From NCBI RefSeq assembly GCF_027497195.1, contig NZ_CP114905.1:7079001-7143000 (forward strand): a DNA stretch of 64,000 nucleotides. The letters run 5' to 3'. The stretch is from Streptomyces sp. WMMC500 (lineage in GTDB: Bacteria; Actinomycetota; Actinomycetes; Streptomycetales; Streptomycetaceae). The translations under genes and the position numbers were made by a program. Below the pieces are notes generated by a model that searched no databases, was not told the origin of the DNA, and saw nothing but the letters and a program-made list of their open reading frames with translations. Position 1 is the first letter of the stretch; each line of letters starts with the position of its first letter. Positions 40,476 through 62,687 of this stretch are shown here, one piece after another.

Positions 40476-41693
40476 ATGGCCGGGCAGAGCAAGCGGCGGA
40501 TGTCGGTGGAGCAGCCGCTGTGGCAGGCGCTGACGTACTTCCGGGTGCTGACCCTCGCGTACGCGGTGGCGCAGTTCGTCCACCGGCACGACGACGTCGC
40601 GCGGCCGGCGCTGGGCTGGGCGTACTTCGCGGTGCTCACCCTGTGGACGCTGGTCACCTTCCGCCGGGTCTCGTCGGCGGAGCGCTGCACGTACCGGTTC
40701 CTCGCGGCGGACATCACGCTCACGCTGACCGGCATCCTGCTGACGATCCCGGTGGAGACGGCGGAGCGCATCGACGACGGCGCCACGACGCTGCCGTCGA
40801 TCTGGGCGGCGGGGTCGGTGCTGGGCTTCGCGATCAAGGGCGGCTGGCGGTGGGGCGCGGCGTCGTCGGCGGCGGTGGGCCTGTCGAACATCGTGCAGCG
40901 CGGCGAGGTGGTGCAGGACAACTTCCACAACATCGTGCTGCTGATGGTCGCGTCGACGGCGATCGGCTACATCGTGGAGGTCGCGCGGATCAGTGAACGG
41001 ACGCTGGCCCGGGCGCTGCAGATCGAGGCGGCGACGCGGGAGCGGGAGCGGCTGGCCCGCGACATCCACGACAGCGTGCTGCAGGTGCTGGCGCTGGTCC
41101 AGCGCCGCGGGGCGGCGATCGGCGGCGAGGCGAAGGAACTGGGCCGGCTGGCAGGCGAGCAGGAGGCGGCGCTGCGGACCCTGGTGATGGGCGCGAGGCT
41201 GCCGGCGCAGCGGACGGCGGAGTCGGCGGAAGGTTCCGCCGGGCGGCGGGCGGCGGGGCCGGACGGCGGGGAGCCGGGGGCGGACGACGGGGAGACGTCC
41301 CTGCGGCTGCTCCTGATGTCGATGAGCGGGCCGAACGTCTCCGTCGCGGAGCCCGGCACGCCCGTGGCGCTGCGGACGCACGCGGCGCGGGAGTTGGCCG
41401 CGGCGGTGGCGGCGGCGCTCGACAACGTGCGCGCGCACGTGGGCCCCGAGGCGCAGGCGTGGGTGCTGCTGGAGGAGGAGCCGGACGGCACGGTGGTGGT
41501 GACCGTACGGGACGACGGCCCCGGCATCCCGCAGGGCCGCCTGGCGGCGGCGGAGGCGGAGGGCCGGCTGGGCGTCGCGCAGTCCATCCGCGGCCGGCTG
41601 CGGGACCTGGGCGGCACGGCGGAGTGGGTCTCGACCCCGGCCCAGGGCACGGAAGTGGAACTCCGCCTCCCCCCAACCCCCGCCCCCCGATGA
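40476..41693 (+). CDS. macS: MacS-type sensor histidine kinase
   Basis: A 405-residue kinase. Residues 12-170 hold the membrane input domain (about five helices; VEQPLWQALTYFRVLTLAYA and AAGSVLGFAIKGGWRWGAA are conserved), then HisKA_3 with His198 in LARDIHDSVLQVLALVQRR and a HATPase domain (ALDNVRAHVGPEAQAW, VRDDGPGIP). It matches the MacS family whose partner MacR controls morphological differentiation in Streptomyces. A disordered Gly/Ala-rich stretch (about 245-275) interrupts the ATPase domain. Normally macR follows directly; here a 700-base repeat-rich gap lies between. Confidence 0.85.
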   Translation: MAGQSKRRMSVEQPLWQALTYFRVLTLAYAVAQFVHRHDDVARPALGWAYFAVLTLWTLVTFRRVSSAERCTYRFLAADITLTLTGILLTIPVETAERIDDGATTLPSIWAAGSVLGFAIKGGWRWGAASSAAVGLSNIVQRGEVVQDNFHNIVLLMVASTAIGYIVEVARISERTLARALQIEAATRERERLARDIHDSVLQVLALVQRRGAAIGGEAKELGRLAGEQEAALRTLVMGARLPAQRTAESAEGSAGRRAAGPDGGEPGADDGETSLRLLLMSMSGPNVSVAEPGTPVALRTHAARELAAAVAAALDNVRAHVGPEAQAWVLLEEEPDGTVVVTVRDDGPGIPQGRLAAAEAEGRLGVAQSIRGRLRDLGGTAEWVSTPAQGTEVELRLPPTPAPR

Positions 41694-41969: not shown

Positions 41970-42378
41970 GCGTCCCCCGCCCCCGCGGCCCCATGCCCCG
42001 CCCCCGCGGCCCCATCCCGCCCTCGCGCGGACACACTGTCCCGTCGTCCCCGCGGGCGGCGATACGTGCCGGAACGAGCGACGTGCGCCACCATGGTCCG
42101 CGGACCGTGTCCGTCCGTATGCGTCCCCCGCCCCCGCGGGCCCATGCCCCGCACCGCGGGCCCACGTGTCCCGGCGTCCCCGCGGGCGGCGATACGTGCC
42201 GGAACGAGCGACGTGCGCCACCATGGTCCGCGGACCGTGTCCGTCCGTATGCGTCCCCTGCCCCCGCGGGGCCCCCGCCCCGCACCGCGGGCCCACGTGT
42301 CCCGCCGTCCCCGGGGGCGGCGATACGTGCCGGAACGAGCGACGTGCGCCACCATGGTCCGCGGACCGTGTCCGTCCG
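41970..42378. repeat. Three-copy ~130-bp tandem repeat between macS and macR
   Basis: The unit containing GATACGTGCC, CCACCATGGTCCGCGGACC and CGTCCGTATGCGTCCC starts at 42061, 42191 and 42322, i.e. a 130-131 bp period. Copies one and two are nearly identical; the third is cut after the CGTCCG stretch. A weaker fourth copy lies upstream from about 41970. Each unit holds the perfect 12-bp palindrome GGTCCGCGGACC. The reading frame of macR happens to be open through the array. No gene is supported in the 708-base gap 41694-42401. Confidence 0.85.
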
Positions 42379-42401: not shown

Positions 42402-43079
42402 GTGGTCGGTGAAGGCAGGGGTGGGGTCAAGGTGATGGTCGTCGACGACCACCCCATGTGGCGTGACGCCGTCGCCCGGGATCTGGCCGCCGCCGGGTTC
42501 GCCGTGGTGGCCACCGCCGGCGACGGGCCCCAGGCCGTGCGGCGGGCCCGGGCCGCCGGGCCGGACGTGCTGGTGCTGGATCTCAATCTGCCCGGGCTGC
42601 CCGGGGTGCAGGTGTGCAAGGAGGTCGTCGGCGCCCAGCCCGGCGTGCGGGTGCTCGTGCTCTCCGCCAGCGGCGAGCACGCCGACGTGCTCGAAGCCGT
42701 CAAGTCCGGCGCCACCGGCTACCTCGTGAAGTCCGCCAGCACCGAGGAGTTGATCGACGCCGTGCACCGGACCGCCCAGGGCGACCCGGTGTTCACCCCC
42801 GGCCTCGCCGGCCTCGTGCTCGGCGAGTACCGCCGGCTCGCCGGCGAGCCGGCCGCCGCGAACGCCGACGAGCCCGAGGTGCCCCAGCTCACCGACCGCG
42901 AGACCGAGGTGCTCCGCCTCGTCGCCAAGGGGCTCTCGTACAAGCAGATCGCCGAGCGCCTCGTCATCTCCCACCGCACCGTCCAGAACCACGTGCAGAA
43001 CACCCTCGGCAAGCTCCAGCTCCACAACCGCGTCGAGCTCGTCCGCTACGCCATCGAGCGCGGTCTCGACGACGACTGA
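42402..43079 (+). CDS. macR: MacR-type LuxR-family response regulator
   Basis: A 225-residue regulator. The receiver has VMVVDDHPMWR, phosphoacceptor Asp60 in VLVLDLNLPG and a lysine in YLVKSAS. The NarL-type helix-turn-helix is LTDRETEVLRLVAKGLSYKQIAERLVISHRTVQNHVQNTLGKL. It fits MacR, reported to bind TGAGTACnnGTACTCA; a perfect example lies at 61740-61755 of this window. The GTG at 42402 follows AGGGAGGGAG; the ATG at 42435 would remove 11 residues. The frame continues upstream into the repeat array but no start there has a ribosome site. Confidence 0.85.
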   Translation: MVGEGRGGVKVMVVDDHPMWRDAVARDLAAAGFAVVATAGDGPQAVRRARAAGPDVLVLDLNLPGLPGVQVCKEVVGAQPGVRVLVLSASGEHADVLEAVKSGATGYLVKSASTEELIDAVHRTAQGDPVFTPGLAGLVLGEYRRLAGEPAAANADEPEVPQLTDRETEVLRLVAKGLSYKQIAERLVISHRTVQNHVQNTLGKLQLHNRVELVRYAIERGLDDD

Positions 43080-60102: not shown

Positions 60103-61665
60103 TCAGCGGGAGCCGCGGAAGTCCGCACCCTCCATGATCAGCCCGGCCACCAGGGCCCCCGACATCCCCGCGTGCGCCAGCCCGCCGCCCGGGTGCGACC
60201 AGCCGCCCACCGCGTAGAGGCCCAGCACGGCCGTGGTGTTCGGCTGCGGCAGGTACGCGCCGCCGGCGCCGGCCAGGGCGGGCCCCGGCACCGCGCCGCC
60301 CGGGGCGTCCGTCTCGGCGGCGGTGTCCGCGGGCGTACGCACCTCGCGCCACAGCACCCGCTCCGCGAGCCCCGGCACCGCGCGCCCGGCCGCGGCCACC
60401 ATCCGGTCCGCGAACGCCTCCGCGGCCGGTGCGGCTTGCTCCCCGGCCGGTGTGGCCTCGCTGCCCCACGCCCCGGCCGGCACGACGGCGGTCAGCGTCA
60501 CGGCCTCGTGCCCGGCGTCGGGGCGCTGCGCGGGGTCGTCGGGGCGCAGCACGGTGACGGTGGGCACCACGTCGGTCCCGGGCCGCGCGCCGTCGAAGAT
60601 CCAGGCCAGTTCGCGCGCGGCGTCCGGGGAGTGCACGACGGTACGGTGCACGGCGTCGTCGTCCCGCGCGCCGCGCAGCGCCAGGCACACGGTCAACCGC
60701 CCCGGCACCGCCCGCGCCGCCGCCGGCACGCCGGCCTCGTACGCGCCGGGAGCCAGCTCCGCCAGCCGCGCCCGCGGCACCCCGGCGATCACCGCGTCGG
60801 CGTCCGCCCGCTCGCCGCCGGCCAGTTCGACGCCCGCCGCCCGGCCGTCCGCGCCCACCCGGACGGCGGTCACCTCCGCGCCGAACGCGAACGTGATCCC
60901 GCGCTCCAGGCAGCGCTCGTACAGCGCGTCCGCCAGTGCCCGCATGCCCCCGCGCACGTACCAGCCGCCGAAGGTCTCCCGCACGTACGGCAGCATCGCG
61001 GCGCCCGCCGGCGCGTGCCGCGGGTCGAACCCGTCCGCCAGGGCGTGCTGCGCGAGCATCGTCCCCAGCGCGGGGTACGGCCCCAACTCGCCCGCGCCGA
61101 CGTCGGCCACGGTGGCGGGCCGCGCGGGCCGGCGCGGGCCGCGCAGGCGGCGCAGCAGCCCGTGCCCGGCCGGCGGCGGGACGGCGGGGTAGAAGTCGGC
61201 GGCCAGCGCGCCCGGGTCGGCGGGCAGGGGCTCCTCGACGAGCGGGCGGCGGGCGGCCTCCCAGACCCGGCGGCCCCGGTCGAGCAGGGCGGTCCACGCC
61301 TCGCCCGCGCCCGGTCCCGCGGCGGCGTCGAGGGCCCGTACGACGCCCGCGCGGGAGGCGTTGGGCAGGGTGGCGTCGGTGCCGTCGGGGAAGAGGTGCC
61401 GCTCGGCCGGGTCCACCGGCACCAGCTCCACGCACTTCTCCAGCTTCCGCCGGCCGGTCTTGAGGAACAGGTCGCGGTAGACCGCGGGGAGGTACAGCAC
61501 CCCGGGACCGGTGTCGAAGCCGAAGCCGTCGCGCTCCAGCCGCCGGACGCCGCCGCCGTACGTGCCGGAGCGCTCGTGGACCGTCACCCGGTGGCCCGCG
61601 AGGGCCAGCCGCGCGGAGGCGGCCATGGCGCCCATGCCCGCCCCGACAACCGCGATCTCTGCCAT
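60103..61665 (-). CDS. CrtI-like FAD-dependent oxidoreductase
   Basis: A 520-residue enzyme of the phytoene desaturase-like family. The FAD-binding N-terminus is EIAVVGAGMGAMAASARLALAGHRVTVHE (residues 3-31), followed by GFDTGPGVLYLPAVYRDLF and, at the C-terminus, GLYAVGGWSHPGGGLAHAGMSGALVAGLI. No crtB, crtE or other carotenoid gene lies nearby, so it could desaturate a carotenoid, isoprenoid or another lipid. The ATG at 61665 is preferred over longer frames because a TAAAGT -10 lies seven bases upstream. The MacR-type box lies about 75-90 bases upstream of the start. Confidence 0.82.
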   Translation of the reverse strand: MAEIAVVGAGMGAMAASARLALAGHRVTVHERSGTYGGGVRRLERDGFGFDTGPGVLYLPAVYRDLFLKTGRRKLEKCVELVPVDPAERHLFPDGTDATLPNASRAGVVRALDAAAGPGAGEAWTALLDRGRRVWEAARRPLVEEPLPADPGALAADFYPAVPPPAGHGLLRRLRGPRRPARPATVADVGAGELGPYPALGTMLAQHALADGFDPRHAPAGAAMLPYVRETFGGWYVRGGMRALADALYERCLERGITFAFGAEVTAVRVGADGRAAGVELAGGERADADAVIAGVPRARLAELAPGAYEAGVPAAARAVPGRLTVCLALRGARDDDAVHRTVVHSPDAARELAWIFDGARPGTDVVPTVTVLRPDDPAQRPDAGHEAVTLTAVVPAGAWGSEATPAGEQAAPAAEAFADRMVAAAGRAVPGLAERVLWREVRTPADTAAETDAPGGAVPGPALAGAGGAYLPQPNTTAVLGLYAVGGWSHPGGGLAHAGMSGALVAGLIMEGADFRGSR

Positions 61666-61672
61666 GGCCCGG

Positions 61673-61678
61673 ACTTTA
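61673..61678 (-). promoter_or_regulatory. -10 box of the CrtI-like gene (leaderless)
   Basis: TAAAGT on the minus strand, seven bases before the ATG at 61665. Confidence 0.5.
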
Positions 61679-61728
61679 TCCCGGCCGCCGCGGGGGGCCA
61701 CGGGCGGGAGCGGTGGGGCTGGGGGTGC

Positions 61729-61772
61729 GTACTCAGCTTTGAGTACGCGTACTCAGACACGTGCTTGAGTAC
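61729..61772. promoter_or_regulatory. MacR-type binding site with flanking half-sites
   Basis: TGAGTACGCGTACTCA (61740-61755) is a perfect match to the reported MacR consensus TGAGTACnnGTACTCA. Half-sites GTACTCA (61729-61735) and TGAGTAC (61766-61772) flank it. The region lies between the CrtI-like gene and the HEPN gene; the 545-base interval 61666-62210 otherwise holds only promoters. Confidence 0.75.
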
Positions 61773-62136
61773 CCGAGCGGATGGGCCCCGACCTGCGCAA
61801 ACGGCAGAGTGAGGGACGTGGGTCGGACGCAGGAAGGAGTCACGGACCGCCGACACGGGGCGGCGGAACGGGACTTCGGTGCCGGCCCATGAGGGGGGAA
61901 CGGGGGAAATGGGGGGAAGCTGTCCCGGTGATGGAGCGACGGGGGATCGCTTCGCGCCGGGGCAGCGCCCGTTCCGGGTGGCGCGCGCAGGCGGGGGCGG
62001 CGTTCCACGCCGGGGCAGCGCTGGGAGGCAGTGTGGGGCACGGCGCTGGGGCAGCGCCGGGGGCGGCCGTGCGGGCAATTGCCGCGGAGGGTGCGGTCGG
62101 GGGCATCGTCGCAGGTAGCGGGGCAGTTCAGGTCGA

Positions 62137-62159
62137 TTGTCAGTGGGGTGCGCCACGAT
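62137..62159 (+). promoter_or_regulatory. DNA-damage-type (PafBC/RecA-NDp-like) promoter
   Basis: TTGTCAGTG (62137-62145), eight bases, then CACGAT (62154-62159). The upstream part is a perfect match to TTGTCRGTG-N8-TAnnnT, the actinobacterial RecA-independent SOS promoter; the -10 deviates at its first base. It lies 51 bases before the HEPN gene start. Confidence 0.55.
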
Positions 62160-62210
62160 GGGCACATACGAACGAACGACTGAAGGACTGACGCCGACAG
62201 GAGGCAAGCC

Positions 62211-62687
62211 ATGGCGGCCGAGCCGGCTTACGCCCCACCGAGTGATGTCCACCCCGTCCTGCGCCCGGGCAGTGCGCCCAAGGCGGCGCTGGAGCTCCTC
62301 GCGCAAGCCCACGCCAGTCTGGCGGAGGCGGCGGAGATGGAGACGGCGAACGAGCGCTACTCCCTGGCCCACCTCGCCGCCCTGCGCACCGCCGCGGCGG
62401 TGCTCGCGGTGCGCGGGCGCCCAGAGCCGTCGCCGCGGCGCCGGCAGCGCATCCGCAGCGCGTGGGAGGTGCTGCCGGAGGTCGCGCCGGAACTCGCCGA
62501 GTGGAGCGCGATGTTCGCGGTCGGCGCCCGGCTGCGGGCCCGCGCGGAGGCGGGCATCAGGGATGCCGTCGACGAGCAGGAGGCGGCCGATCTCCTGCGC
62601 GCGGCGGGCATGTTCACGCGGATCGTCGAGCGGATGCTCGTCGTCCAGCCACTGATACGCCCCCAACCGGGCCCAGAGGCGCGCTGA
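62211..62687 (+). CDS. SAV_6107-like HEPN-domain protein
   Basis: A 158-residue all-helical protein. Residues about 20-75 (AALELLAQAHASLAEAAEMETANERYSLAHLAALRTAAAVLAVRG in pieces) and the later helix pair fit the SAV_6107 HEPN family of Streptomyces. HEPN domains often bind nucleotides or act as RNases; the usual RxxxxH motif is not clearly present here. ACAGGAGGCAAGCC precedes the ATG. A DNA-damage-type promoter upstream would place it in the genotoxic response. Confidence 0.75.
   Translation: MAAEPAYAPPSDVHPVLRPGSAPKAALELLAQAHASLAEAAEMETANERYSLAHLAALRTAAAVLAVRGRPEPSPRRRQRIRSAWEVLPEVAPELAEWSAMFAVGARLRARAEAGIRDAVDEQEAADLLRAAGMFTRIVERMLVVQPLIRPQPGPEAR

Follow-up and report, generated by a model that had tools for sequence, protein, structure and literature searches.

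A palindromic MacR-type operator and a small structured RNA as its probable partner in Streptomyces sp. WMMC500

A 64-kb stretch of the Streptomyces sp. WMMC500 genome (the window) carries a perfect palindrome of the type presumably read by the response regulator MacR, situated upstream of a CrtI-like oxidoreductase gene, which raises the question of which transcription unit it serves. The original prediction took the CrtI-like gene as the target. Comparison across Streptomyces and the wider family points elsewhere: the palindrome is probably a MacR operator and part of the promoter for an scr2101-type non-coding RNA, which is small and structured and points away from the CrtI-like gene.

Operator, half-sites and the MacRS system

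The palindromic 16-mer TGAGTACGCGTACTCA (no strand) occupies 61740–61755, and its assignment as an operator draws on its sequence, genome counts and orthologous CrtI loci. Re-reading of the letters confirmed its placement in the original prediction, as well as that of two flanking half-sites, GTACTCA at 61729–61735 (minus strand) and TGAGTAC at 61766–61772 (plus strand), separated from the operator by 4 nt and 10 nt, respectively. No other exact copy of either heptamer (TGAGTAC/GTACTCA) occurs in the 64 kb, and the 16-mer is the single match at up to two mismatches versus 0.01 expected from shuffling. We take TGAGTACnnGTACTCA to be the MacR consensus, as did the original prediction; the string was not found in the literature searched. 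The TGAGTAC half-site lies between the operator and the -10-like element of the RNA, and the extra half-site on the CrtI side is shared with the sister species' locus (L041) and was not noticed in the other printed loci. The upstream TACTCA was also considered as an independent second operator; this was rejected, as its reverse complement is the invariant TGAGTA beside the RNA's -10, and it is kept as a half-site. Plasmid records gave no match to 61600–61850.

Genome-wide, the exact 16-mer search that the original prediction had proposed returned five sites in 8.61 Mb against none for a reversed-pattern control; at up to two mismatches there were nine sites against two. Of 81 Streptomyces genomes surveyed (this one among them), 75 carry one or more exact copies of the 16-mer and 8 the reversed control. 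Three of the five exact sites (L001, L002 and L003) lie upstream of short membrane-protein ORFs. The gene at L002 is MmpB by NCBIfam (71 bits, cut-off 34); the labels mmpA and mmpC for the genes at the remaining two were assigned in this analysis, not by NCBIfam. At the fifth exact 16-mer (L004:1501–1516), neither side offers a convincing gene at the usual distance; it is possibly another non-coding target.

MacRS of S. coelicolor corresponds to SCO2120/2121. As originally noted, the window contains both partners about 19–21 kb from the site: macS, a sensor kinase gene (40476–41693, plus strand; NCBIfam NF047322, 483 bits, cut-off 300), and a NarL/LuxR-type response regulator gene (42435–43079, plus strand, start inferred), recognized from its translation and the Pfam domains Response_reg and GerE. 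The name macR for the latter rests on its position beside macS, and a MacR model was absent from the best 25 of 100 NCBIfam matches to its product. Within the ~740-bp gap between the two genes, 41996–42378 comprises ~2.9 tandem copies of a 130-bp unit with 93% match. A survey of 148 genomes from the class found exact copies of the 16-mer in 15 of the 66 whose MacS exceeds the cut-off and in 1 of the other 82, the sole MacS-negative carrier (G263) having a MacS-like gene fragment at a contig end. Support outside the genus is modest because the corresponding counts there are 5/55 and 1/82 (Fisher p 0.038) and the forward pattern is found in 6 genomes versus 2 for the reversed control. A match to this consensus and a MacRS system are found in the same genome. 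The 16-mer counts, the presence of MacS and the exact site ahead of the MmpB gene support a non-random, MacR-type operator, and to this extent the original prediction stands.

Neighbours that keep or lose the operator

The CrtI-like FAD oxidoreductase gene (60103–61665, minus strand; ATG at 61665) carries the Pfam Amino_oxidase domain and scores 172 bits against the CrtI phytoene desaturase family TIGR02734, under the curated cut-off of 238. Its -10-like element, TAAAGT at 61678–61673, lies 61 nt from the site, essentially the distance originally predicted, and the ATG at offset 74, a spacing unlike that of mmpB promoters. CrtI orthologues are present in 77 of the 81 genus genomes; 76 loci were fetched (a fragment in G028 was left out) and 75 were usable, L049 lacking upstream DNA. 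The site was found at up to three mismatches upstream of CrtI in 61 of these 75 loci and as an exact copy in 12, compared with 3 comparable matches in 151,566 positions of CrtI coding and downstream sequence. Of the site-bearing loci, 23, the window included, have less than 400 nt and no gene between site and CrtI, with a varying distance to the CrtI -10 (site centre from about -41 to -308); in the other 38, what intervenes is a DUF4126 membrane-protein gene (PF13548, 171 bits) or an equivalent gap of more than 400 nt. The DUF4126 gene stands between operator and CrtI in L050, L072 and others, whereas the window has no such gene there; a search of the window's genome, run without a positive control, gave no DUF4126 match.

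CrtI genes generally carry a promoter of their own. A leaderless-type TAnnnT ends 7 nt ahead of the start in 71 of 76 loci, preceded at 8 nt by a TTGTCRGTG-like box in 44 of these 71 (up to two mismatches) and in none for each of eight shifted controls. We take TTGTC(A/G)GTG-N8-TAnnnT to be the form of the DNA-damage RecA-NDp (PafBC-type) promoter, and its likeness to the box ahead of the CrtI start in many relatives (L042–L115; compare window positions 61665–61700) suggests that CrtI-like genes of many Streptomyces may be under DNA-damage control. In the window, where only the -10-like TAAAGT (61673–61678, minus strand) is left, the box shows 8 mismatches to this form and has been lost, yet 17 exact motifs occur elsewhere in this genome; the sister species' box, with 4 mismatches, was also counted as lost. 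RecA-NDp in Streptomyces is described in PMC5087735.

The operator follows the RNA rather than CrtI. The RNA signature is present in 65 of the 75 usable CrtI loci, with the palindrome (up to three mismatches) exactly 21 nt before (G/A)CGGAT in 60; four more carry it there with four mismatches, and one (L069) has no palindrome. Neither site nor RNA occurs in the remaining 10 loci, and no usable locus has the site without the RNA. These 10 genomes are a natural experiment separating CrtI from site and RNA: in nine, the RNA lies ~7 kb from CrtI, and in all eight relocated RNA loci that were readable (L232 was left out) the site lies 21 nt (once 31 nt) upstream of it. No site was found at CrtI in any of the 10, nor at DUF4126 in the nine that contain it.

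The association extends across genera. Among 70 RNA loci, obtained from 84 places matched by the covariance model (11 were not fetched and 3 were second matches inside fetched loci), 58 carry the palindrome at up to three mismatches within 60 nt upstream, compared with a single one of 1400 control windows drawn from these loci; the other 12 have none at this threshold. When up to four mismatches are allowed (61 loci), 51 loci have a spacing of 21 nt and 8 have 30–32 nt, longer by one helical turn. TGAGTA stands directly ahead of the -10-like element in 64 of the 70. The covariance model itself begins with GCGGAT, leaving the operator outside it. At six loci with the longer spacing (L178, L183, L186, L190, L202 and L212), DUF4126 is present and CrtI is absent within ~2 kb by tblastn; L183, L186, L190, L202 and L212, from another genus of the family, have the site 30–31 nt ahead of the -10-like element, not 21. 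The sequence and conservation of the site, its fixed spacing and its co-migration with the RNA, read directly from these genomes, mark the RNA, not CrtI, as the operator's conserved partner at the level of comparative genomics.

The RNA and its predicted promoter

The RNA matches covariance model R1 at 61777–61880 (E 1.5e-15), the sole match in this genome at the threshold used. It lies on the plus strand, opposite CrtI, with sequence conservation strongest away from CrtI. Across the family, the model matches 79 of 121 genomes, representing 16 of 17 genera, with E about 1e-3 for the weakest match; Rfam gave no family matching the RNA at E up to 1. Its apical hairpin, CCGCCG-ACACGGGG-CGGCGG (61847–61866), contains a covarying pair: column pair 75/88 is CG in 35, GC in 10 and AU in 1 of the 46 aligned relatives. 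For this alignment (A1; 46 of 77 distinct sequences), whose loci were picked by half-site plus hairpin pattern, 12 loci that missed the hairpin pattern being left out, the hairpin covariation score was 0.162 versus 0.043 shuffled and was reached by 0 of 500 shuffles; covariation is confined to two hairpin pairs, and 45 of 500 shuffles gave as many. Single-sequence folding predicts an outer stem, GGAGTC (61836–61841) with GACTTC (61872–61877), around the apical hairpin (61836–61877 overall). A long imperfect hairpin appears in all folded relatives, its register varying, and the window RNA folds with a z of -2.69, 2 of 200 shuffles being equally stable. The locus shows the conserved RNA sequence and structure expected of an scr2101-type small RNA. 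One genome holds a second, diverged copy (L206; G157:C1:7460369–7460451), also with TACTCA/TGAGTA upstream.

Two other roles for this region were considered and rejected. The next gene on the RNA side encodes a SAV_6107-type HEPN protein (62211–62687, plus strand; Pfam PF18726, 125 bits), and the RNA could be its leader, as the two are co-directional in the window; other genes follow in many relatives, and the role was rejected as a general one, though it may apply in the window. A small protein in place of the RNA was rejected because the ORF starting (A/T/G)TG-AGT, read in many loci, varies in length from 3 to more than 400 codons and because the spacing between AGAGTG and the hairpin loop is spread over all three frames (45, 17 and 15 of 77), one of them being commonest.

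The promoter geometry resembles that of mmpB-type promoters, which we take to be activated by MacR. At mmpB-like genes, a leaderless ATG lies 34–36 nt past the site in 13 of 13 loci, which places the operator centre near -42.5. On the RNA side, the -10-like element GCGGAT (61777–61782, plus strand) follows the operator at an offset of 21 nt, as it does in 54 of 62 scanned loci, with ACGGAT there in 6 more. This offset would place the operator centre at about -41.5 and the RNA start near 61790, with a predicted 5' end near 61789–61791. GCGGAT lacks the A usual at position 2 of a -10 element, and a consensus scan of 61400–62400 identified no sigma-70-type promoter and no intrinsic terminator. 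In the proposed mechanism, phosphorylated MacR would bind the 16-mer in this position, the place of a class II activator, assisted by the half-site beside the -10, and would switch on an RNA of ~100 nt. The transcript would form a long hairpin, its ACACGGGG loop being conserved, and probably act by base-pairing elsewhere.

The site resembles the MacR operators of the mmp genes of S. coelicolor in its 16-mer, in the site-to-start distance of mmpB-like genes and in the presence of MacRS. It differs from them in that the downstream unit is a structured RNA instead of a membrane-protein gene, in the second half-site beside the -10 and in the proximal palindrome half, which is often degenerate in relatives (GTACCTA). 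On the RNA side, the closest known counterparts are scr2101, a small RNA of S. coelicolor on the strand opposite SCO2100–SCO2101 that is reported to rise ~7-fold without RNase III (PMC5775266), and scr2100(d-), reported as detected by northern blot (PMC4681348). By their reported position opposite SCO2100/SCO2101 (PMC5775266, PMC4681348), both would share the intergenic place and strand of the window RNA. The gene order in the window fits an SCO2100/SCO2101-type position opposite CrtI, with the TetR-like neighbour absent, and published RT-PCR primers map to the flanks of the RNA region in relatives with 0 to 4 mismatches. Because the comparison was made in relatives and not in S. coelicolor DNA, we infer the scr2101-type identity of the window RNA. 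The only function found described for scr2101 is that of a possible antisense RNA (PMC5775266), which does not fit the window, where no gene is seen on the other strand there. Nor is an antisense arrangement fixed: in four rearranged genomes examined, the RNA comes after a TetR-like gene of the same strand. A link of MacR to scr2101/scr2100, or to any small RNA, was not found in the literature searched, which did not extend to subscription papers such as the original MacRS and scr2101 papers.

Competing readings and biological meaning

Activation of the CrtI-like gene from this site, as originally proposed, is unlikely. It would be favoured by the 61-nt distance to the CrtI -10, with the operator centre at about -81.5, and by the extra half-site on the CrtI side; moreover, with the RecA-NDp-like box lost here and in the sister species, control could have shifted. 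These points have to be set against the absence of the site from the same 10 of 75 CrtI loci that lack the RNA, its presence beside the RNA in all eight cases that could be read, the erratic site-to-CrtI spacing over 23 loci and the six loci of other genera in which site and RNA persist with CrtI not nearby. On this point the original prediction is not supported. Quite unlikely, too, is a main target in the DUF4126 gene, whose loss from the window would leave the site as a remnant on that side. MacR is known to target membrane proteins, the DUF4126 start lies ~55 nt past the site in many loci, and among the 38 long-spaced loci 29 have the DUF4126 -10 at offset 42, which centres the operator at about -62.5, a class I place. 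However, other -10 offsets occur (29 in three loci, 8 in two, 43 and 45 once each, none found in two), the nine rearranged genomes keep DUF4126 with CrtI and without the site, which in the eight readable ones accompanies the RNA, 23 loci retain the site despite having less than 400 nt to CrtI, and the site is perfect in the window's genome, where the search without a positive control gave no DUF4126 match.

That MacR represses the RNA, or controls both divergent sides together, we regard as similarly improbable: the palindrome does lie between divergent units, with a half-site within the -35/-10 spacer, but the geometry equals that of mmpB-type promoters, which are taken to be MacR-activated, and the predicted -10 is weak. 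A different regulator reading the palindrome is very improbable. Its candidate would be a TetR-like gene (by sequence reading) that borders the region in many relatives; no such gene is seen beside the site in the window, and the MmpB gene elsewhere in the genome has an identical 16-mer upstream. Promoter control of the RNA by MacR, the preferred reading, leaves room for lesser effects on the flanks. The fixed DUF4126 -10 distance makes dual control possible, and since the centres at the RNA (about -41.5), at DUF4126 (about -62.5) and at the window's CrtI (about -81.5) are in helical step, lesser effects on both genes are possible. For the window's CrtI, a side effect is possible in view of the palindromic site, the helical step of -81.5 with -41.5 and -61.5 and the extra half-site facing it.

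MacRS is known for membrane-protein targets and indirect antibiotic effects (PMC9739842, PMC10345050), and MacR affects actinorhodin, with ChIP-qPCR reportedly unable to show it at actII-orf4 (PMC8857197). We tentatively suggest, as a possibility of low likelihood, that MacRS has a dedicated small-RNA output, conserved in the Streptomycetaceae, by which some of its indirect control over antibiotics and development is exerted. If true, such an output would explain the effect of MacR on actinorhodin despite the ChIP-qPCR result at actII-orf4. An RNA under a MacRS operator would give scr2101 a regulator and offer a testable route to the indirect effects of MacRS, and the operator, acting as an RNA switch, would give this developmental signalling system a small-RNA output.
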